Virus record (IMG/VR): IMGVR_UViG_3300044825_003289
Span: 1-26,453 of that record
Direction: 5' to 3' (one strand)
Origin: a virus
DNA length: 26,453 nt
Positions 3,646 to 18,464 of this stretch are shown one piece after another. Within the stretch, counting starts at the first letter, position 1. Each line of letters opens with the position of its first letter. Position numbers and translations under genes: made by a program. Under the pieces are notes generated by a model. The model ran no database searches, was not told the origin of the DNA, and worked only from the letters and a program-made list of their open reading frames with translations.

Positions 3646-6447
3646 ATGATTACACCTGAAGAAATCAAAGCCTTCTTGGAGGGTAACGACCCTGAAGAGT
3701 TTATCGTGTCGTGTGAGTTCGATTATATGTCGGATTCAATCTATAAAATCAAAGAAATTCCGGGTAAGGGTAAAGAGATTCGTAAGGATACGTTTACCCC
3801 TTTTTGTTGGGTTGGTGACCTGAAAGGTTTGGGTTTTTATAACAACTCCAAGGGACTTCAGAAAGAGGCAATGAGTAAACACGGTATTATGATTACCAAG
3901 TTGGATACTCATGGTGACGAACGAATGGAAAAGGGACTTACCTATATGGTTAAGTCACTCAAAGGGTACAGAAGTCTAATTCAGTTTTTTCGTGAAGGAG
4001 GGGCAGACCCTTGGGGTGAGAAGTTCCGTGATAAGATTATGATTCTTCCACCTGTTGAGCAATACTTTATCTCAAAAGAAAAACGATTGTTCAAAGGTTA
4101 TGAAGACTATGATGACGTAACCCGATTGGTATTTGACTTGGAGACCACCTCTCTTGAACCTAAGGACGGTCGTATCTTCATGATTGGTATCAGAACAAAC
4201 AAAGGATACAACAAAATTATTGAGTGTATCGACGAGAGTCAGGAGAAGGAAGGAATCTTAGAGTTCTTCAAAGTAATCAACGAACTCAAACCAAGTATCA
4301 TCGGTGGTTACAATTCAGCGAACTTCGACTGGTATTGGATTTTTGAACGTTGTAGAATTTTGGGAATGGACATCAGAAAGATTGTTCGTTCTCTACACCC
4401 TGAACATTCTATCTCTCAGAAGAAGAATATTCTCAAACTTGCTAACGAAGTTGAGGACTTTATGCAGACTTCTATTTGGGGGTATAACGTTATTGATATT
4501 ATCCACGCAGTACGTCGGGCTCAGGCAATCAACTCTTCCATCAAGTCGGCAGGTTTGAAATACATCTCTGAGTTTATCAACGCCAAACAACCCGACCGAG
4601 TTTACATCAACCACGATAGTATTGGTAAGATGTACACCGAAAAAGAAGAGTATTGGTTGAATATAAAGAATGGTGAATACCGTAAGAAGGGTAACTTTAC
4701 AGATTTGGATAAGAAGTTCCCCGATACCTACGTCTTGACTGACGGTGCCGACATTGTGGAACGATACCTCCAAGATGACTTGGATGAAACTCTCAAAGTT
4801 GACAAGGAATTCAACCAAGGTTCTTTCCTTCTTGCTTCGATGATTCCAACAACCTATGAAAGAGTTTCCACTATGGGAACCGCAACTTTGTGGAAGATGT
4901 TGATGCTCGCGTGGAGTTACAAACATAATTTGGCAATACCAGCTAAACAATCCAAAACAGACTTCGTTGGTGGTCTGTCACGACTTCTTAAGGTTGGATA
5001 TTCTAAGGACGTACTCAAACTTGATTTCTCTTCTCTGTATCCTTCCATTCAGTTGGTACACGATGTGTTCCCCCAATGTGACGTGACAGGTGCGATGAAG
5101 GGTATGTTGAAGTACTTCCGTGACACTCGTATCCTCTACAAACAACTCGCTGAGGAATGTTACGAGACGGACCCCAAAAAGGCGGCGACTTATAACAACA
5201 AACAACTTCCTATTAAAATCTTCATCAACTCGATGTTCGGTGCACTATCAGCTCCACAGGTCTATGCTTGGGGGGATATGTATATGGGTGAACAAATCAC
5301 CTGTACGGGTCGTCAGTATCTTCGTCAGATGATTAAGTTCTTTATGTCTCGTGGGTACACACCTCTTGTAATGGATACGGACGGTGTGAACTTCTCACTT
5401 CCTGAGGAGGCTAAGTCACGTAGATATGTGGGACGTGGTTTGAATTGGAAGGTGAAGGTAGGAAAAGTATACGAAGGTCCTGAAGCGGATGTTGCTGAGT
5501 ACAACGACATCTTCATGAGGGGTGAGATGGCTTTGGACACCGATGGGGTATGGCCCAGCTGTATTAACCTTGCTCGTAAGAACTATGCGGTTATGGACTT
5601 TAAGGGTAAAATCAAACTCACAGGTAACTCCATTAAATCAAAGAAACTACCTGGTTACATCGAGAAGTTCTTGGACAAGGGAATCAAAATGCTATTGGAA
5701 GGTAAGGGAAAAGAATTTGTTGATTACTACTACGAGTACATCGAAAAGATTTACAACCAACAAATTCCTCTTGCACAGATTGCACAAAAAGCAAAAGTGA
5801 AACAAACCCTTCAGGAGTATAAGGTACGTTGTACACAGACCACCAAAGCGGGTTCTTTGATGTCACGACAAGCTCACATGGAACTTGCAATTCAGCACAA
5901 TATGAATGTGAATTTGGGGGATGTTATCATGTACGTAAACAACGGGGAGAAAGCATCTCACGGTGACGTACAAAAAGTACCTGCAAAGAAATATTCAGAC
6001 CTACAGAGAAAAAAACATTTTGAGAAAACGGGTGAGGTTTTGGAAGACGTTCCATCATACATTAACTTGAATTGTTATATTCTTGACCCTGCAGAACTTG
6101 AAAACAATCCTGATATGACGGGGGATTACAATGTACCTCGAGCAATTACCACATTCAACAAACGGATTGAACCTCTGTTGGTTTGTTTTAAAGATGAAAT
6201 ACGTAGTGGGTTACTTGTGACTAATCCTGACGATATGGGTATCTTTACCGCTAGTCAGTGTGAACTTATCAACGGATATCCTATGGGACCTGGTGACCAA
6301 GACGATTTGAACGAGGTTATGACAATGTCTGATGGTGAGGTAAAATATTGGGAAAAAAGAGGATTGTCACCAACTTATATGTACGATTTGGCAGAAGAAG
6401 GGTGGGAGCAGTATATTTACAGCTATGAAGCTGAAACACATAGCTGA
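3646..6447 (+). CDS. 43: Family B DNA polymerase with 3'-5' exonuclease (T4 gp43-like)
   Basis: This is the replicative polymerase. With ATG 3646 it is 933 residues; an in-frame GTG at 3610 would add 12. T4 gp43 is 898. Exonuclease motifs are present: DLETT near residue 164 (Exo I), GGYNSANFD near 220 (Exo II) and YLQDDLDET near 372 (Exo III). Polymerase motif A is DFSSLYPSI near 460, motif B KIFINSMFG near 524, and motif C VMDTDG near 576. Motif C reads DTDG where the usual form is DTDS; both catalytic aspartates are kept. All catalytic acids for synthesis and proofreading are therefore visible. ATG 3646 is preferred because a hairpin covers the GTG and the protein start MITPEEIKAFL looks natural. 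It is expressed from a host-type promoter. Its 3' end overlaps the next gene by 23 bases. Confidence 0.95.
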   Translation: MITPEEIKAFLEGNDPEEFIVSCEFDYMSDSIYKIKEIPGKGKEIRKDTFTPFCWVGDLKGLGFYNNSKGLQKEAMSKHGIMITKLDTHGDERMEKGLTYMVKSLKGYRSLIQFFREGGADPWGEKFRDKIMILPPVEQYFISKEKRLFKGYEDYDDVTRLVFDLETTSLEPKDGRIFMIGIRTNKGYNKIIECIDESQEKEGILEFFKVINELKPSIIGGYNSANFDWYWIFERCRILGMDIRKIVRSLHPEHSISQKKNILKLANEVEDFMQTSIWGYNVIDIIHAVRRAQAINSSIKSAGLKYISEFINAKQPDRVYINHDSIGKMYTEKEEYWLNIKNGEYRKKGNFTDLDKKFPDTYVLTDGADIVERYLQDDLDETLKVDKEFNQGSFLLASMIPTTYERVSTMGTATLWKMLMLAWSYKHNLAIPAKQSKTDFVGGLSRLLKVGYSKDVLKLDFSSLYPSIQLVHDVFPQCDVTGAMKGMLKYFRDTRILYKQLAEECYETDPKKAATYNNKQLPIKIFINSMFGALSAPQVYAWGDMYMGEQITCTGRQYLRQMIKFFMSRGYTPLVMDTDGVNFSLPEEAKSRRYVGRGLNWKVKVGKVYEGPEADVAEYNDIFMRGEMALDTDGVWPSCINLARKNYAVMDFKGKIKLTGNSIKSKKLPGYIEKFLDKGIKMLLEGKGKEFVDYYYEYIEKIYNQQIPLAQIAQKAKVKQTLQEYKVRCTQTTKAGSLMSRQAHMELAIQHNMNVNLGDVIMYVNNGEKASHGDVQKVPAKKYSDLQRKKHFEKTGEVLEDVPSYINLNCYILDPAELENNPDMTGDYNVPRAITTFNKRIEPLLVCFKDEIRSGLLVTNPDDMGIFTASQCELINGYPMGPGDQDDLNEVMTMSDGEVKYWEKRGLSPTYMYDLAEEGWEQYIYSYEAETHS

Positions 6448-6712
6448 CTTTAATGTCAACAATCCCGAAGCCGACTTTTGGATTATCCGTAAAGGAAGTG
6501 AAAATACTGTCGGTACACCCACTCGTGAGTTTTCACCTGAACACATCGGTGTCACTGTAACTCGCCCTGATTTGGTTATACCCGATTATTTGTTCTATAT
6601 GTTCAAATATTTTGCTCAATTAGGATTGTTTTCTCAACTTGCTCACGGCACAACTAACCTGAAGAACATCAGTATTAAAGACGTTAAGAATGTTCCTATC
6701 AGGACTGCTTAA
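6425..6712 (+). CDS. Stand-alone half of a type I restriction specificity (HsdS) target-recognition domain
   Basis: This 95-residue protein contains FWIIRKGSENTVGTPT, EHIGVTVTRPDLVIPDYLFY and AHGTTNLKNISIKDVKNVPI in separate blocks. The order (R-K/R-G-S, a v..p...i.p.Yl.y helix start, then G-t-t-n..I...d....ip) is that of the C-terminal part of an HsdS target-recognition domain, which normally reads one half of a bipartite DNA site. There is no helical spacer, second domain, HsdM or HsdR in the window. It starts inside the polymerase gene (23-base overlap), so it is probably translated from the same mRNA. It could act as an anti-restriction subunit mimic or as a DNA-binding accessory to replication; neither is shown. 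It converges with the next gene and overlaps its end by 14 bases. Confidence 0.6.
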   Translation: MKLKHIADFNVNNPEADFWIIRKGSENTVGTPTREFSPEHIGVTVTRPDLVIPDYLFYMFKYFAQLGLFSQLAHGTTNLKNISIKDVKNVPIRTA

Positions 6713-7034
6713 GTCCATCTGAGGATATAATGTACCAAGTTCCGGCACAGAATCGGAACTCTACACATGCACCTTTGTCGATAAGGATTTCATCGTATTC
6801 CTCATCAATTTTTCCCATATCGGGAATAATCAAAACTTTTGTCATTGCCTTGATGGTGGTGTGGTCTGTTGAAATAGAATCCAAACGTACTTTAGCACTT
6901 TCTATTCCTCTAATTACAACACAAGACTCACCATGAGTTTCGTAAAATGGTTCCGATACTACGGCAACCTCTGAAGTGTGGATTATTTTGTTATTAAAAA
7001 CCCTTTGTGAAGGGACACTTTTGATGACAGACAT
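6699..7034 (-). CDS. Hypothetical small virion-like protein
   Basis: This 111-residue protein of unknown function has many short beta strands. The C-terminal segment, GACVEFRFCAGTWYIISSDG in character (about residues 88-107), resembles the WyiisSdG endings seen in many phage surface and tail-associated proteins. No catalytic motif or membrane segment is visible. Its start lies four bases after the stop of the gp13-like gene, so it is the last gene of that leftward late unit and is probably translated from the same mRNA. This context supports a structural or head-tail role. Its end overlaps the convergent HsdS-like gene by 14 bases, with no terminator hairpin recognised between them. Confidence 0.55.
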   Translation of the reverse strand: MSVIKSVPSQRVFNNKIIHTSEVAVVSEPFYETHGESCVVIRGIESAKVRLDSISTDHTTIKAMTKVLIIPDMGKIDEEYDEILIDKGACVEFRFCAGTWYIISSDGLKQS

Positions 7035-7038
7035 AAAA

Positions 7039-8157
7039 TTAGATTACGTAAATTTGTCTTGGCATTGCTCTGAACTTCATTTGTTTGTTGAGGTTTTCAG
7101 CAATCTCCGCTTCCTTCTTCATTTGGTTTTCAGGACGGAGTCTTTCAAGACGTAGTTTTAATTCTTCTTCTAACTTACTTTTTTCATCTTTAGCCTCAGT
7201 CTGAAGTACTTGATAGTCCATGATGATTTCACTATCGGGAGTCTTCAAGTTACCACTATATTTTCCACGAACACGAGCCAAGGTTTCTTTAGCATAAGCA
7301 GTGAACCAACGTCTAACCCATTGTTGACCAGGAACATTTAAATCTTCCCATGATAGTTCTTCAATGGGTACATCCGAAGGTAACTTGATGATGTCGGGGT
7401 TATCTTTAAGACATTGAGCTCTACTGTCACCGTCTACTTCGTAATAGAAATACCAAACAGCTTTACCTGTATATTCAGAGTAGTTACTCCATGAGAAATT
7501 ACTACCCGGGGCGTTGTAGAGGGTAATTAACTTTTTACCATCAGGTAATCCTGTGATTTTGTAAGTTAATTCACCACCCAAGATTCTGTTAAGAATGTTT
7601 GCCTCTTGATATCTCAAGAGGTAATCAAATCCACTTAACATAAAGTAAGAACCGGCAGTTCCAATTTGTGCATAACCTGCTTGGTTAGCACCCAAACCAA
7701 CACCACCAAATCCATAGTCAGTGGTTCCCCAAAGGGCTAAGTTTTGGAATGGTTGGTTAGAAAACCATAGAAGTTCGTTTACCTCTCTACCCGCAGGGAT
7801 TTCATACGTTTGGGTATTAGCACTCAAAACAAAGTAATCTTGTTTTAAGACCCATGGTCCCATAGTTTGAAGTCCTACAATCTTCGAGTATGCGTAGGTG
7901 AATTGGTCTTCGAAGTTGAGAGTTCGTGTAATCAGTGCGTTAGCGACCGACTTTTCACTCATATTTAAATTCACAAGGTTTACCCATTGTGATTCAATCA
8001 ACCAATCAAGAACGTATTGTTCGTAATCCTGAATGGAAAGCTCCATCAAGGAATCCAACATATCATCCTCTAATTCTACGCTTCGTAGAGGTGCACCAAG
8101 TTGGTGCTTCAATCGAGTATAAATTCTACTTCTTTCGGGTTCCGGAATTACTGCCAT
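7039..8157 (-). CDS. Neck / head-to-tail connector protein (T4 gp13-like)
   Basis: The protein is 372 residues; T4 gp13 is about 309. It has an N-terminal helical region with EDDMLDSLMELSIQDYEQYV, a central beta region, and a C-terminal helix WFTAYAKETLARVRGKYSG (about residues 285-303) followed by a charged helix-rich tail. The pattern (W..Y..A..ke.lgr.R.Kf.g, then an acidic segment and L..E...E...L..EL) is shared by neck proteins of many myoviruses, where they join the portal vertex to the tail. The start is ATG 8157, only four bases after a TATTTAT motif, and the next in-frame ATG is 32 codons later, so this start is firm. It follows the SOD-fusion gene and precedes a small structural-type gene. 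Confidence 0.62.
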   Translation of the reverse strand: MAVIPEPERSRIYTRLKHQLGAPLRSVELEDDMLDSLMELSIQDYEQYVLDWLIESQWVNLVNLNMSEKSVANALITRTLNFEDQFTYAYSKIVGLQTMGPWVLKQDYFVLSANTQTYEIPAGREVNELLWFSNQPFQNLALWGTTDYGFGGVGLGANQAGYAQIGTAGSYFMLSGFDYLLRYQEANILNRILGGELTYKITGLPDGKKLITLYNAPGSNFSWSNYSEYTGKAVWYFYYEVDGDSRAQCLKDNPDIIKLPSDVPIEELSWEDLNVPGQQWVRRWFTAYAKETLARVRGKYSGNLKTPDSEIIMDYQVLQTEAKDEKSKLEEELKLRLERLRPENQMKKEAEIAENLNKQMKFRAMPRQIYVI

Positions 8158-8161
8158 GTCT

Positions 8162-8168
8162 ATAAATA
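8162..8168 (-). promoter_or_regulatory. Candidate late promoter TATTTAT (site 2)
   Basis: On the minus strand TATTTAT is followed by AGAC and then ATG of the gp13-like gene. Four bases separate motif and start, so a transcript started from it would have almost no leader. The site sits in the 18-base gap after the SOD-fusion stop and forms the palindrome CTATTTATAG-type core (CTAT/ATAG). Confidence 0.6.
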
Positions 8169-8175
8169 GTCGGCA

Positions 8176-9699
8176 CTATCTTAAGTTGTAAAGAAGGTCA
8201 TTTTTATCAAAAACATATTCCCCCAACACGATTTCAGGGTTGTTTTTAAAGATTACCACACGACCACCTTTTACAAAGACCATCCAGTCAACATTGTAAT
8301 GTTCGATATCACCCGGTTTGGTAACAACAATTTTACCATCAGTTTCTTGAAGTTCATCGAAACCTTTTACTTGAGCGGTCAATATTTTACCGTCAAGATT
8401 GATTTCCATGTCGATTTTTTTGATGGCGTCTTTGATTTTACCAGCACCTGCCGTGACATTAACAACCGCACCTGAGATGCTCTTCATAATTTTTTCCTTA
8501 GCGGTGGTTTCCCTACGAGTTCCAACTTTGTCCTTTTCTTCTAAAGTTGTCATAATGTTTCTGAAGGTAGAACTCTTTGGGTCGTAAATTCTATCGGTGA
8601 ACTTTTCAATAAACTTGCACATACGTTTCATTTCTTGAATTTGTTCACCGGGAGTTTTTTCTTGGAACTCTATTTCTTGTTCACCGACGTTTCTTAAAAC
8701 CTTATTCAAATCACGAACCATAATACAGAATACAGAATAGTTGGTGTTCATGTTATTGATTACTGAACGACCTTCTTTCTCTAAGTTGTAAACTCCGGGA
8801 ATTTCTCCATTGTCACTTTGGAAGTGGTATCTGTCTTTGTAGTAGTTCTGATGGGTTTTGATAATTGTGTTACGGTAAAAGTTTCTTGCTGGTCTGTTGA
8901 CATTGAAGAACAGTTGGTAGAATTCGATATCCTTCCGTGAGCAGGCTTCTGATTTTCCTTCCATAAGTAATTGTCCTATTTGACGGGTTTCTAATAATTG
9001 GGTTTCTGTTTTGAGTTCCAAAAGATTTTCCACAAAGTCCCAATTGACTGCCGTCCAAAAGTTCTTGATGTACTCATCTCTCTTGTTTCTGTATTTGAGG
9101 TAATACGCATGTTCCCACAAATCTAAGCCTAAAAGTGGATATCCGCCGCCTTCGATAACATTCATTAGTGGATTATCTTGATTGGGGGTAGACATAATCT
9201 TCAAAGTATTCTTGTTGGTTAAGATTAACCACACCCAACCTGAACCAAATCTTTCTTTAGCAATTTTTTCAAATTCTGATTTGAACTTTGGTAAACCACC
9301 GTATTGGTTCCTAATTTTCTGATACATTTTCTTTCCAACTTTTGTTGGTGTTGGGGAGAGCATGTTCCAAAACAATGCGTGGTTAAAAGCTCCACCGGCA
9401 TTATCTCTTACGGCTTTTGGATATTTGGATATGTTTTTAATTATTTTTTCTAAGTCATCTGTCCCTTTTCTTTTTTTAAGAAGTGCATTTAACTTATCGA
9501 CATATCCTTTGTAGTGTTTATTGTAGTGAACGTTCATTGTCTCAGGGTCAATAAAACGTTTCAAGGCTGAATAGGCGTACGGGAGTTTCTCAATCCCGAT
9601 TTTTTTCATTTCTTTGATAAGAACTTTTACCTCTTCTTTTTTCTGTTCGTGGATGATTTTCTTTTCGACTTTCTCCACTGATTCTTGTAGATGTTCCAT
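8176..9699 (-). CDS. Mn-type superoxide dismutase domain fused to a phage-specific C-terminal region
   Basis: This 507-residue protein contains a complete Fe/Mn superoxide dismutase at residues ~37-230. It includes LPYAYSAL, HYNKHYKGYV, DNAGGAFNHALFW, FGSGWVWL, STPNQDNPLM and GLDLWEHAYYLKY. By comparison with E. coli SodA the metal ligands are H58, H107, D193 and H197, the gateway tyrosine is Y66, and Q174 in the NQD block is the manganese-type glutamine; all are present. SOD converts superoxide to oxygen and hydrogen peroxide. Residues 1-36 are a charged helix. Residues ~235-507 have no SOD counterpart; the last 80 residues contain TAQVKGF and DWMVFVKGG in a mixed alpha/beta segment. Typical SODs are ~200 residues, so this is a true fusion. 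A late motif precedes it and a neck gene follows, which suggests a virion protein. It ends with TAG. Confidence 0.88.
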   Translation of the reverse strand: MEHLQESVEKVEKKIIHEQKKEEVKVLIKEMKKIGIEKLPYAYSALKRFIDPETMNVHYNKHYKGYVDKLNALLKKRKGTDDLEKIIKNISKYPKAVRDNAGGAFNHALFWNMLSPTPTKVGKKMYQKIRNQYGGLPKFKSEFEKIAKERFGSGWVWLILTNKNTLKIMSTPNQDNPLMNVIEGGGYPLLGLDLWEHAYYLKYRNKRDEYIKNFWTAVNWDFVENLLELKTETQLLETRQIGQLLMEGKSEACSRKDIEFYQLFFNVNRPARNFYRNTIIKTHQNYYKDRYHFQSDNGEIPGVYNLEKEGRSVINNMNTNYSVFCIMVRDLNKVLRNVGEQEIEFQEKTPGEQIQEMKRMCKFIEKFTDRIYDPKSSTFRNIMTTLEEKDKVGTRRETTAKEKIMKSISGAVVNVTAGAGKIKDAIKKIDMEINLDGKILTAQVKGFDELQETDGKIVVTKPGDIEHYNVDWMVFVKGGRVVIFKNNPEIVLGEYVFDKNDLLYNLR

Positions 9700-9715
9700 G
9701 TTAGAAGATTTTCCT

Positions 9716-9722
9716 ATAAATA
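9716..9722 (-). promoter_or_regulatory. Candidate late promoter TATTTAT (site 3)
   Basis: On the minus strand TATTTAT lies 16 bases before the ATG of the SOD-fusion gene, in the 38-base gap after the SNF2 helicase. It is extended to TATTTATA, the exact reverse complement of the T4 late consensus. An AGGA follows directly and is too far from the ATG to be a convincing ribosome site. Confidence 0.6.
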
Positions 9723-9737
9723 ACAGGAAAGTTTGGT

Positions 9738-11492
9738 TTATCTTCGTTGGTTGATGCTCTTCAAAATTTCTTCCACAACATTTGTTTCATCTTGAATGTC
9801 ACCCATGACAGTTCCGATGATTCTTTTCTTTGTGTTCAAAATATCGTAAATGATACCCTCTATTGTGTTGTCAAAGATAGGGTAATAAACCAACACGTTA
9901 TTTTTTTGACCGTAACGATAAGCTCGGTCTTCAGATTGACTGTGGTCGGAAGGTAGGAAAGACAAATCGTTCATAATAACCGCTTCTGCTGCGGTCAGAG
10001 TAATACCAACACCAGCCGCTTTGATGTTACCTATAAAAACTTTTACGTTTTCGTCCGTTTGAAATTTGTCAACCGATTCTTGTCTTTGTGTTTTGGACAT
10101 AGACCCATCCAACCTGACGGCAGATTTTCCAAAATGATTATAAATTACCTCCAAAGATTTTGTGAAGTTACAAAAAATGATAACCTTTTTTCCTTGTTCG
10201 ATAATGTTCTCGGCGAGTTCAATGGTGTGTTGTGTCTTTTCATCGGCAATTACCTGTCGAACTTGTGTGAGTTTGGTGAACTGAATCGATAAGTTTTTAC
10301 TCTCCTCAGGATTTTTATCGTACCAGTTGTAGTAGTCCCCCATCAATTCTTCGTACAACTTTGAACGAAGTCTTAGGTAAACAGGTGTGATAATTTTTTC
10401 AGGTAAATCCAACACATCTTCTTTAAGTCTTCTTAAAACCGTTGTTGATGTTCGGTCCCGAAGTTCTTCAAGATTTGATGCCCCCATCACATTCCAAACC
10501 TTTCTTATACCCACTTTGAACTGATATCCCGCACAATATCTGACCACATAAGCCATCCAGTTTTTAGCAACAGGTGAATCAACCAAACTCAATAGATTAA
10601 AATAGTTGATGGGTCTTGATGTCATAGGGGTACCTGTCAACAACCACAACCTATCAACATCTTTTACCAAGTCATTTATCAACTTGGTTCTCTGTGCTTG
10701 GACATTTTGGATGTAGTGAGCTTCATCGATGATTACTAAATCAAATTTGGAATTGAGTATTACCGAATTTTTTCTGTCTTTGGAGTCGTGGAAATTTTTG
10801 ATGATATCATAATTCATGATAACAATTTCTGCGTCGGGAGAAAAATTCTTACCCTCGCAGACAAAAGATGGTTTTTTTGAATAAAGTTCGTATTCCCTCT
10901 GCCAGTTTATCTTGAGTGATGCTGGACATATGATAAGAATTTTCTTTGCTTCCGTTTCTAACGATGCAATGATTGTTGAAGTGGTTTTACCCAAACCCAT
11001 ATCGTCCGCCAAAATATACTTTTTGTTTTCAAGTAAACTTTTGATGGCAATTTTTTGGTGTTCAAGTGGAGGACGATGATTATACTTTTCATAATCAATT
11101 TCTCCAACTTTGATTTTATTGTCTTTAATGATTGAAACTTTGGGGACCCAAATGTCAGTCATTGGCTCTGTTTCAAAGAACCTTCCCCATATGTGGTACG
11201 CCTTATCTTTTTCAGCCAATAACTTTTCAATCCACAACTTTTCGGGAATCTTCATCAAAAACTTATCGTCGGCAATCTTTTGTGAAAAATAAGAATCGAG
11301 TAACACCCACTTCTTTGCGACTTTGGGAACGTTGTCTTTGTTGGTGACAATATATTCTGCCTGACTTCGAGTTGGATAAAACTTTTTGTTCTTAAGGAGT
11401 TTGTCTTTCAAACCCAAAATATAATTGTTTGCCCCTTCGTAAGATTCAAGAATTGAAATGGCTTTGGATTCTATTGTTAAATCTATACCCAT
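9738..11492 (-). CDS. SNF2-family DNA translocase/helicase (SMARCAL1/HARP-like core)
   Basis: This 584-residue superfamily 2 ATPase carries all SNF2 motifs: ADDMGLGKTT (162-171, Walker A), DEAH (256-259), LTGTP (285-289), VRLDGSMS (459-466), AGVGITLTAA (493-502) and QSEDRAYRYGQ (519-529, motif VI). Compact SNF2 enzymes of this kind move on duplex DNA and can anneal or remodel forks; phage versions are thought to serve repair, recombination or fork rescue, as T4 UvsW does. The first ~145 residues are a separate N-terminal region with no motif that I recognise. The start ATG shares one base with the TAA of the SET gene (TAATG), so translation is probably coupled. It stops 38 bases before the SOD-fusion gene. 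Confidence 0.9.
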   Translation of the reverse strand: MGIDLTIESKAISILESYEGANNYILGLKDKLLKNKKFYPTRSQAEYIVTNKDNVPKVAKKWVLLDSYFSQKIADDKFLMKIPEKLWIEKLLAEKDKAYHIWGRFFETEPMTDIWVPKVSIIKDNKIKVGEIDYEKYNHRPPLEHQKIAIKSLLENKKYILADDMGLGKTTSTIIASLETEAKKILIICPASLKINWQREYELYSKKPSFVCEGKNFSPDAEIVIMNYDIIKNFHDSKDRKNSVILNSKFDLVIIDEAHYIQNVQAQRTKLINDLVKDVDRLWLLTGTPMTSRPINYFNLLSLVDSPVAKNWMAYVVRYCAGYQFKVGIRKVWNVMGASNLEELRDRTSTTVLRRLKEDVLDLPEKIITPVYLRLRSKLYEELMGDYYNWYDKNPEESKNLSIQFTKLTQVRQVIADEKTQHTIELAENIIEQGKKVIIFCNFTKSLEVIYNHFGKSAVRLDGSMSKTQRQESVDKFQTDENVKVFIGNIKAAGVGITLTAAEAVIMNDLSFLPSDHSQSEDRAYRYGQKNNVLVYYPIFDNTIEGIIYDILNTKKRIIGTVMGDIQDETNVVEEILKSINQRR

Positions 11493-11896
11493 TACTTAAT
11501 GTCTATTATTTGTCCAGTACTTTCCCAATAACTACTATCTCCGTAATATACTGTGATTTCTTCACCCACTTCAATGTTTCGTAACGCGTAAAAATCAAAA
11601 CTTTTTTGACCTTTTGTGTCTGTCCACTCAGCGTTTGGATTTTCAGAGTGATTGTAAAAAGAGGAATACCCGAGACCTAACACGTGAATTTGGTTGGAAG
11701 AATTTCTTGGAAAGAAAAATCTATAGTCGGGGAGAATGTTATATTCACCACCTCTTTTAGTTGGTATTTCTAACACAGGTGCAACCTCAAATACTTCACC
11801 CTTCCAAATTTTTTGAATTGCGAAAACCCCAACTCCATGAATAGGACTTGGTGCTACTCTGATTTTGTATGGTGGGTTGATAACCATTTTGTTCAT
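11492..11896 (-). CDS. SET-domain protein (putative lysine methyltransferase)
   Basis: With ATG 11896 the protein has 134 residues; ATG 11887 is also possible, and the longer frame from 11926 runs through the promoter region and is unlikely. Three SET motifs are visible: HGVGVFA near the N-terminus, YNHSENPNAEW in the middle (the NHS..PN cofactor knot) and GEEITVYYG near the C-terminus. SET enzymes transfer a methyl group from S-adenosylmethionine to protein lysines. There are no pre-SET or post-SET cysteines, so it is a minimal version like those found in some bacteria and large viruses. It is the first gene of a two-gene unit with the SNF2 helicase and shares a base with its start. A target protein cannot be named. 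Confidence 0.8.
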   Translation of the reverse strand: MNKMVINPPYKIRVAPSPIHGVGVFAIQKIWKGEVFEVAPVLEIPTKRGGEYNILPDYRFFFPRNSSNQIHVLGLGYSSFYNHSENPNAEWTDTKGQKSFDFYALRNIEVGEEITVYYGDSSYWESTGQIIDIK

Positions 11897-11916
11897 AATA
11901 ATAACAACTAAACAGG

Positions 11917-11923
11917 TATTTAT
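11917..11923 (+). promoter_or_regulatory. Candidate late promoter TATTTAT (site 4), between divergent genes
   Basis: TATTTAT is 13 bases before ATG 11937 of the gp14-like gene. The same bases read ATAAATA on the minus strand, 20 bases before ATG 11896 of the SET gene, which matches the T4 late core in T4 orientation. The 40-base gap between the two starts contains no other clear signal. Confidence 0.55.
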
Positions 11924-11936
11924 CAATATATCGGTT

Positions 11937-12452
11937 ATGGCACAGAAATTAGTTCCAATTACACGTCTTGGTAAATTCTTTGGTGGAGAAGACTATTCTC
12001 TCGACATCGCTATGGGTTCAGAGTGGTTAGAGGGGGATATGAACTTCACCGTTGTTCTCTATCGTGTTGACAGATACAAGACAAGAATCGACAACGTTTA
12101 CGGTGAAGCACCTGAGGGTGGTATTCAGTTTTACGCACCTGTTGAACTCAAAGGTTATGTACAAATTTTGGCTCCGACTGGACAACGACTTGGTAATTCA
12201 AGAATTGAACAAGACGAACCCGGTAACATGAGGTTTTCAATCTATCAATCTTATTTGGATGAATTGGGGGTTGATATTGCTTATGGTGACTATTTGGGTT
12301 ATTATGAGACTGAGAAAAAAGTTCGTTACTATTCTGTGTCTGATGACGGCAGGGTCGTTTCCGATAACAAACACACTTACGGTGGATATAAACCTTTCTA
12401 CAGGACAATTATCGCTGTACCTGCTAGTCAAAATGAATTCTTTGGAACCTGA
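11937..12452 (+). CDS. Neck protein, probably T4 gp14-like
   Basis: The frame is open from 11865, but the first 24 codons run over the divergent SET gene start and the late motif, so ATG 11937 (MAQKLVPITRLG) is chosen, giving 171 residues. The C-terminal half has DIAYGDYLGYYETEKKVRYY, then a KPFYRTI segment. This resembles the GD.i.fp....fei..v....pFYq section of gp14-type neck proteins that close the head and receive the tail. T4 gp14 is 256 residues, so this is shorter. Support also comes from position: a gp13-like gene lies nearby and a gp15-like gene follows directly, the order of T4. Its TGA overlaps the next ATG (TGATG), so translation is coupled. Confidence 0.5.
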   Translation: MAQKLVPITRLGKFFGGEDYSLDIAMGSEWLEGDMNFTVVLYRVDRYKTRIDNVYGEAPEGGIQFYAPVELKGYVQILAPTGQRLGNSRIEQDEPGNMRFSIYQSYLDELGVDIAYGDYLGYYETEKKVRYYSVSDDGRVVSDNKHTYGGYKPFYRTIIAVPASQNEFFGT

Positions 12453-12883
12453 TGCCATTTCCCAAACAAGTAAAACCAAATATCGATTTAGTACCTCCTA
12501 AGACACTCTTTACGAGGAGGGAACAACTTTCGGAATTCATCAATAAGGATGGTACTTATTTACCCAAATCTGTTCTACATGCGGATTTGGATTTAGGTAT
12601 GTTAGAGTTTGTAAAAAATTCTCTCAAAACAACAGTATCGGGAAAAGATGTGAATGTTGTTGATAAAATTATTACCAATCAAAGATGGTCTCAGTTTACT
12701 GAAACCTGGAACTTTGTGGACCCTGACTTTAACGTTCAACTACCTTTTATCACAGTGGTTAGAAAACCTGAGGTTAAATATGGAACTAACCCTTCCACCC
12801 AATACACGATTCCTGTTAGAAAACAATTTTATTATGCTACAGTTCCAACTTGGAACGGTAATCAAAAGGGTTACGATATCTAG
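12452..12883 (+). CDS. Tail sheath stabiliser / completion protein (T4 gp15-like), part before an in-frame TAG
   Basis: This is the first 143 codons of a 349-codon reading frame broken by a TAG at 12881-12883. The start ATG overlaps the gp14-like stop. The segment has a proline-rich start, a conserved-looking block LPKSVLHADLDLGMLEF and a WSQFTETWNFVDPDFNVQLPFI block. The frame continues past TAG without any other stop into a part that looks like gp15, so the two halves belong to one protein that caps the tail and stabilises the sheath. The amber codon may be a mutation, a sequencing or assembly error, or a site of suppression. Alone, this half lacks the gp15 core. Confidence 0.6.
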   Translation: MPFPKQVKPNIDLVPPKTLFTRREQLSEFINKDGTYLPKSVLHADLDLGMLEFVKNSLKTTVSGKDVNVVDKIITNQRWSQFTETWNFVDPDFNVQLPFITVVRKPEVKYGTNPSTQYTIPVRKQFYYATVPTWNGNQKGYDI

Positions 12884-12943
12884 ACCATTCCACAACCAGT
12901 ACCAGTAGATATTGATTATAGTGTAAAAATTATTTGCAACAGA

Positions 12944-13498
12944 ATGAGGGAGTTGAATACATTCAACAAAAATGTACTTCAAACTTTTTCTTCACGTCAA
13001 GCCTACACCTTCATTAAAGGTCAATACGTCCCAATCATCATGAATAATATCACTGATGAATCTGTTTTGGATATTGATAAAAGGAACTACTACATTCAAA
13101 GTTACGATTTTACCATGTTGGGTTATCTTATTGATGAGGAAGAATTTGAAGTAAAACCTGCTGTAGCCAGAGTACTACAGATGTATGAGGTGGATACTAA
13201 AGTTCCCACAGGGAAACGAAATCAAATTAGTCCATCCAATCCAAACGAGTTTGAGTATCCTTTTTACTATACTTCAGGTAATACATCGTTGACTGATTTT
13301 CCTGTGGATTATAGGATTGATGTAAAATTTGTGAGTTCTCAAAACGTAGATACCTACGATGTTTACATTAATGATGATTATTATGGTACAGATGTTTTTA
13401 CCATTCAATTAAATCAAGGAGACAAATTTCAAGTGGATGTAAACAAGACTACAGTAGGTGAAGAGGCGAATATTCTCTTCAATGCGAAGTTAGTTTAA
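12944..13498 (+). CDS. Tail sheath stabiliser / completion protein (T4 gp15-like), part after the in-frame TAG
   Basis: The same frame as 12452-12883 continues after the TAG at 12881. Codons 12884-12943 already encode conserved-looking sequence (TIPQPVPVDIDYSVKI), so ATG 12944 is merely the first ATG after the break rather than a likely true start. The block P.P.DidYsvkI..nrm.eln.f, then a QAY..IkGqyvPI segment, then SYDFTMLGYLIDEEEF matches the layout of gp15: a PSPIKMIYEL-like strand, a helix, a basic strand and a WSLTFEVNGW-like strand. No late motif or ribosome site precedes it. The stop TAA shares three bases with the stop of the convergent gene at 13495, inside TTAA. Confidence 0.6.
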   Translation: MRELNTFNKNVLQTFSSRQAYTFIKGQYVPIIMNNITDESVLDIDKRNYYIQSYDFTMLGYLIDEEEFEVKPAVARVLQMYEVDTKVPTGKRNQISPSNPNEFEYPFYYTSGNTSLTDFPVDYRIDVKFVSSQNVDTYDVYINDDYYGTDVFTIQLNQGDKFQVDVNKTTVGEEANILFNAKLV

Positions 13499-17975: not shown

Positions 17976-18464
17976 ATGGCAGATTTATTAATGAAAATGC
18001 CCATTCCCTACGAACCGAAACGTCAGAACCGTTTCATTCTTAGGTTTCCCTCAACTTTGGGAATTAACGAATGGTTTGTAGAGTCAACAGCCAGACCACA
18101 CATCACAATTGCACCAACTGAAATTCAGTTTTTGAACACCTCAACGTTCGTTGCGGGAAGATTCAACTGGCAAACAATTCCTGTTGTGTTCCGTGACCCA
18201 ATCGGACCTTCAGCAGCTCAAGCTCTTATGGAGTGGGTACGTTTACACGCTGAATCAGTAACAGGTCGTATGGGTTATGCTGCAGGTTACAAAAAAGACA
18301 TCGACCTCGAGATGCTCGACCCAACAGGAGTAGTAGTTGAAAAATGGATTCTTTATGGTACTTTCTTAACTGACGTCAACTTCAACTCATTATCTTACTC
18401 ACAAGATGCTTTGGCAACAATCTCAGCGACTTTGAGAATGGACCGTTGTGTATTGATTTACTAA
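17976..18464 (+). CDS. 19: Tail tube protein (T4 gp19-like)
   Basis: The 162 residues match the length of T4 gp19 (163). Typical tube features are the N-terminal basic strand PKRQNRFILRFP, the STARPHITIAPTEI segment, a central VVFRDPIGPSAAQALMEWV block and the ending LATISATLRMDRCVL. Stacked hexamers of this protein form the rigid inner tube of the contractile tail. It has its own late motif and is followed by a terminator, so it can be made in high amounts separately from the next genes. The start is ATG 17976 (MADLLMKMPIPYEP). The order sheath, tube, chaperone-like gene, tape measure is standard for myovirus tails. Confidence 0.9.
   Translation: MADLLMKMPIPYEPKRQNRFILRFPSTLGINEWFVESTARPHITIAPTEIQFLNTSTFVAGRFNWQTIPVVFRDPIGPSAAQALMEWVRLHAESVTGRMGYAAGYKKDIDLEMLDPTGVVVEKWILYGTFLTDVNFNSLSYSQDALATISATLRMDRCVLIY

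Follow-up and report, generated by a model that had tools for sequence, protein, structure and literature searches.

We report that SODx, a 507-residue gene product of an uncultivated phage, joins a complete Mn-type superoxide dismutase (SOD) to a second, conserved phage part that is predicted to consist of a helical segment and a PD-(D/E)XK nuclease-like fold. The fusion is real and modular, as shown by related phages in which the gene is present and the SOD cleanly absent. Within the loci seen, this conserved phage gene can do without its SOD module but not without the nuclease part. The gene lies in a window of 26,453 nucleotides, by which we mean the whole stretch of DNA that was analyzed (IMG/VR record IMGVR_UViG_3300044825_003289, positions 1 to 26,453). 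The relevant features are the following.

8176..9699, minus strand: SODx, the SOD-nuclease-like fusion gene, 507 aa; one complete open reading frame (ORF) with an ATG start and full-length relatives.
9595..9699, minus strand: N-terminal charged helical segment, residues 1-35; a counterpart is retained in SOD-less relatives.
9019..9594, minus strand: Mn-type Fe/Mn superoxide dismutase domain, residues 36-227, from Pfam, PDB relatives, and residue conservation.
8548..9018, minus strand: middle helical region, residues 228-384, with a conserved GRSxxNxxNTNYxxFC motif.
8179..8547, minus strand: predicted PD-(D/E)XK nuclease-like domain, residues 385-507, with E397, D424, D430, Q443, and K445 invariant.
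9738..11492, minus strand: SNF2/SF2 helicase gene, constant upstream neighbor of SODx (PF00176, 8.1e-27; PHROG 62 DNA helicase, 5.6e-110).
11492..11926, minus strand: SET-domain gene (PF00856, 3.5e-14), present in some relatives.
7039..8157, minus strand: neck or head-tail adaptor-like gene, 372 aa (PHROG 211, E 1.9e-10).
6699..7034, minus strand: o111, a small conserved gene, by synteny the last in the helicase-SODx-neck-o111 cluster.
9715..9722, minus strand: promoter-like motif TATTTATA upstream of SODx, reading TATAAATA on the opposite strand.
8161..8168, minus strand: promoter-like motif TATTTATA upstream of the neck-like gene, from a motif scan.

The SOD domain is complete. Residues 36-115 match Sod_Fe_N (PF00081, E 4.9e-21, 75.4 bits against a cut-off of 27) and residues 124-225 match Sod_Fe_C (PF02777, E 1.9e-37, 127.8 bits against a cut-off of 20.9), and the closest solved structure is the S. 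aureus Mn/Fe SOD 5n56, which covers residues 36-227 (E 6.5e-56). The metal ligands H58, H107, D193, and H197 and the gateway Tyr66 are all intact, the Mn-type pair is formed by Gln174 and by Gly103 at the Fe-type Gln position, and the dimer-bridge residues are His62/Tyr200 and Glu196. All of these residues, which SODx shares with Mn-type enzymes such as S. aureus SodA/SodM and E. coli SodA, are invariant in the distinct fusion sequences that cover them (129/129). Fe/Mn SODs are normally free enzymes of ~200 aa, whereas SODx adds an N-terminal helix and, after the SOD domain, ~280 residues that have no SOD counterpart. A preliminary description of this DNA had proposed both a complete Mn-type SOD, from the ligands, Tyr66, and Gln174, and a long C-terminal part foreign to SODs, and both proposals hold. 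The best matches to the SOD part in phage collections are bacterial-type SODs of ~45-49% identity, and the resemblance to Firmicutes and enterobacterial SODs, among phage and PDB sequences alike, gives no firm indication of where the SOD came from.

The same fusion recurs widely. A search of IMG/VR with the SODx protein returned at least 595 confirmed stretches, and in the best 80 of these loci the match spans nearly the whole of SODx or reaches the contig end, at 53-100% identity. A separate search with the C-terminal part as the query yielded 66 loci, all of them with the SOD, and the fusion is retained in members with as little as ~45% overall identity. Among roughly 200 SOD-bearing loci the two parts are split in just one (L221, 4267-5831), where they occupy two overlapping ORFs, probably through a frameshift or sequencing error. 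Since many independent contigs carry the same fusion, chance and artefact are excluded; in particular, the assembly artefact that the preliminary description had named as the finding that would undo its joining of a SOD to a second phage domain is ruled out by hundreds of stretches with fixed synteny. Median dN/dS values of ~0.04 for the SOD part and ~0.10 for the C-terminal part (NG86, 59 pairs), which are rough given a high dS of about 0.9-1.0, indicate strong purifying selection on both parts. The fusion is carried by a large group of uncultivated phages that are related to T4.

Versions of the gene without the SOD also exist. A profile search from outer members of the family returned 80 loci, of which 62 have an ORF with SOD and nuclease parts and 18 have the nuclease part alone in its ORF; because L221 has its SOD in the overlapping separate ORF, the truly SOD-less loci number 17. 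These occupy the same slot between the same neighbors and retain the N-terminal helix, so the SOD part is dispensable. The clearest case is the comparison of L238, with the SOD, and L247, without it: nucleotide identity is 82% before and 86% after a gap of ~585 nt (~195 codons) that is in frame and spans the SOD, and L247 retains the codons for EMKKIEIEKL, equivalent to the flank EMKKIGIDKL in L238, with the reading frame continuing. Neither of the large SOD-less records, G010 with 318 kb and G011 with 309 kb, shows a SOD elsewhere. Far more distant is a 290-aa stand-alone homolog of the nuclease part, with the same motif and adjoining a SET gene, in the 735-kb megaphage LR756501 (L085; BLASTP E 8e-12, tblastn E 3e-9, profile E 4.3e-23). 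No SOD is detectable anywhere in that record, and an IMG/VR search with this homolog alone gave no relatives. Thus the search for the C-terminal region with and without the SOD that had been suggested at the outset found both, as fusions, as 17 SOD-less loci, and in LR756501.

In the tree of the nuclease part, SOD-less rows from viral contigs fall at two places within the SOD-bearing group, whereas in the helicase tree the SOD-less versions form one clade, which is also nested among SOD-bearing phages; the number of losses is accordingly two in the former and one in the latter. Because the SOD-less rows are nested on both trees, at least one loss of the SOD is well supported. We infer that a single early gain of the SOD is likely, an interpretation limited by the disagreement of the trees on the losses and by the great distance of the only outgroup, L085.

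The nature of the C-terminal part is suggested by its predicted fold together with its conserved residues. An AlphaFold2 model of residues 228-507, built with 52 relatives, reached a pLDDT of 86.9 and a pTM of 0.80; the model of full-length SODx is weak (pTM 0.50). The top Foldseek match of the C-terminal model in the PDB is the homing endonuclease I-Ssp6803I (E 9.6e-4, probability 1.00), followed by Hjc Holliday junction resolvases (E 4.1e-3 and 0.078) and, more weakly, by RecU and others. E397, D430, Q443, and K445 are invariant in every sequence that covers them, SOD-bearing and SOD-less alike; in the model E397 lies in a long helix, D430 just before a strand, and Q443 and K445 in the strand that follows, and this E...D...QxK set corresponds in the model to a PD-(D/E)XK arrangement of the QxK variant. 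SODx thus appears to share a fold and motif with I-Ssp6803I, Hjc, and RecU, and differs from them in having no family match at the sequence level, an extra helical region, and a SOD in most members. Even the top Foldseek matches reach only modest TM-scores (~0.4-0.5 of the target), so the assignment is to a nuclease-like fold and not to the Hjc or RecU families. No Pfam nuclease family scored above cut-off for this part, DUF6602 and EcoO109I being weak (below cut-off or far from significant), and the 52 members gave no Hjc or RecU match among Pfam families listed up to E 0.5. The fold of the whole C-terminal part is also matched in BFVD, within an uncultured marine phage protein of 1113 aa (A0A8D9CCA0, TMq 0.80), and fusions of the nuclease part to other partners may therefore exist.

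We considered whether SODx replaces the T4 gp49 resolvase. Profiles for endonuclease VII, RuvC, and RusA gave nothing above cut-off in the relatives that carry SODx, whereas T4 does match endonuclease VII. This argument from a missing resolvase is only suggestive, because phages without SODx (Mel-JY01 and immuto) likewise lack endonuclease VII and RuvC matches, the SODx-bearing records may be fragments, and the weak resolvase-profile matches that were inspected are, by sequence, generic HNH-like proteins.

The gene order helicase, SODx, neck-like gene, o111 is constant, on one strand and opposite to o195 and the sheath genes. The neck-like gene, whose profile matches the counterparts in Microcystis phage Mel-JY01 (3.8e-119) and in LR756508 (2.5e-121), is syntenic with the tail genes of Mel-JY01, in agreement with the earlier report of a neck gene next to SODx. 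In Mel-JY01 and LR756508, an o195-like gene directly follows the neck gene, and SODx is absent. Several further observations concern these neighborhoods. SET genes lie near the nuclease-part gene both in LR756501 (L085, 5275-5712) and in the window (11492-11926), in phages that are otherwise very distant. The helicase gene is broken into two ORFs in L003 (6171-7962). ORFs of 143 and 184 aa at 12452-13498 of the window correspond to a single gene of 353 aa in L002, a nearly identical contig, the split being caused by a single base difference that creates a stop codon. In the 484-kb megaphage LR756508 (L153), two tail-sheath-like genes lie a short distance apart (4092-6584 and 7590-10073).

The motif TATTTATA at 9722-9715 is common to SODx and structural genes, in agreement with the late-type motif noted at the start. 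In the window its sense orientation also precedes a 1697-aa gene and a 162-aa gene at 17976; the relatives of the 162-aa gene in L151 and L152 bear the annotations tail tube and tail completion protein. The window alone shows a weak excess (4 copies against 1.4 expected), and the motif is strong elsewhere: 59 of 70 relatives have it within 60 nt upstream of SODx or of the version without the SOD, against 0.8 expected from shuffling, and in a 182-kb relative (G001, loci L172-L181) it stands no more than 45 nt upstream of 28 of 182 genes, the portal gene among them, against ~1 expected, with the opposite orientation upstream of 6 genes. A chance occurrence is rejected given its strength in the 182-kb relative and across relatives. 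TATTTATA is what the T4 late promoter box, TATAAATA, reads on its complementary strand, so late expression of SODx is plausible from this motif.

As to the host, the 182-kb relative has an SD-like site at 6 of 182 genes and A-rich leaders. The relatives of the sheath are in Microcystis and Flavobacterium phages, and those of the polymerase in phages of Salinibacter and Nostoc/Anabaena. As a guess from sequence, the host may belong to the Bacteroidota; a search of GTDB contigs gave no fusion, and so neither a host nor a prophage. The 182-kb relative also has a cluster of 24 tRNA genes (L178-L179).

Phage SODs are already known. The free phage SODs of Pseudomonas PA5oct/Callisto and Vibrio 2.275.O are Fe/Mn SODs with the same four ligands as SODx; unlike SODx, with which they are ~25-29% identical, they stand alone, have neither a neck-gene neighbor nor a nuclease part, and carry Asp or His at the Mn-type Gln position in the alignment. 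SOD is among the ROS-defense genes of freshwater phages (Kavagutti et al. 2019; PMC6802176), and neither the fusion nor a nuclease domain figures in the portion of that work available to us. An Fe/Mn SOD is also among the viral genes of Microcystis blooms (PMC12542629). In BFVD, a 501-aa protein entitled "superoxide dismutase [uncultured Caudovirales phage]" (A0A6J5L953) matches the C-terminal structure (E 2.7e-23, TMq 0.86); its length and structural match point to a member of the fusion family already in UniProt, under a title that names the SOD and not the second domain. No earlier description of a SOD-nuclease-like fusion was found in the open-access literature, where absence is not proof.

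We favor, at about an even chance, the hypothesis that SODx is a dimeric SOD-nuclease made late in infection that acts in the cytoplasm on or near phage DNA, with the SOD an early and optional insertion. Working with the helicase from the adjacent upstream gene, the helical and nuclease-like domains would most likely cut or process DNA, possibly at junctions or branches. A complete Mn-type SOD would have been inserted early in the phage group between the N-terminal helix and the nuclease part, its usual dimer would pair two nuclease domains, and it would remove superoxide at the site of late phage DNA handling, thereby shielding phage DNA and metal enzymes in the infected cell; a nested sub-lineage would have lost the SOD and retained the nuclease part. 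The SOD activity, the nuclease activity and its substrate, the dimerization, the late timing, the cytoplasmic location, and the purpose are all what we infer. A tighter coupling, in which an active SOD dimer is tied to the PD-(D/E)XK nuclease as a redox-coupled enzyme, with late phage DNA processing shielded from, or switched by, superoxide or the cell's Mn/Fe state, is unlikely in our estimation. Still less probable is that the SOD is kept mainly to control the nuclease through dimerization or metal loading, as in redox- or Mn-gated cutting, and not as an antioxidant. PD-(D/E)XK resolvases such as Hjc act as dimers, and the dimer-bridge residues H62, Y200, and E196 are invariant, which would suit such an element, but so are the catalytic gateway Tyr66 and Gln174, which pure scaffolding does not need, and the nuclease motif is intact where the SOD is missing.

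It is possible, though on balance somewhat unlikely, that SODx is an ordinary auxiliary SOD, which serves the infected cell as an antioxidant in the cytoplasm and whose partner is incidental and offers a shared promoter and translation or a scaffold for solubility or dimerization. The free-standing SOD genes in PA5oct-like jumbo phages and Vibrio 2.275.O, the reported ROS-defense genes including SOD in freshwater phages (PMC6802176), and the dispensability of the SOD all agree with this; against it, the fusion persists down to ~45% overall identity and is split only in L221, probably by a frameshift. The preliminary description had instead placed an active SOD in or on the particle and its gene within a late structural unit. 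Packing of the fusion in the neck or head, where it would protect either the particle or a newly entered host cell, now seems distinctly unlikely. The adjoining neck gene at all loci and the motif shared with structural genes, portal included, do favor it, and these elements of the late structural unit stand; the cluster, however, runs opposite to the tail genes, and the link to the helicase is as constant as that to the neck gene, the only linkage in favor of a particle location. Neither PHROG nor Pfam supports a structural protein, and no structural PHROG matches SODx or its C-terminal part, which has instead the predicted nuclease-like fold with E...D...QxK. Furthermore, nested relatives dispense with the SOD part, and Mel-JY01 and LR756508 have the homologous neck gene and no SODx gene at all.

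Phage antioxidant genes are usually regarded as loose, host-derived metabolic genes. Here a SOD is firmly joined to a nuclease-like core gene found constantly in a widespread group of uncultivated phages, and the annotation "superoxide dismutase" conceals a second domain that is probably related to DNA. Because closely related versions with and without the SOD exist, the purpose of a phage SOD becomes directly testable.
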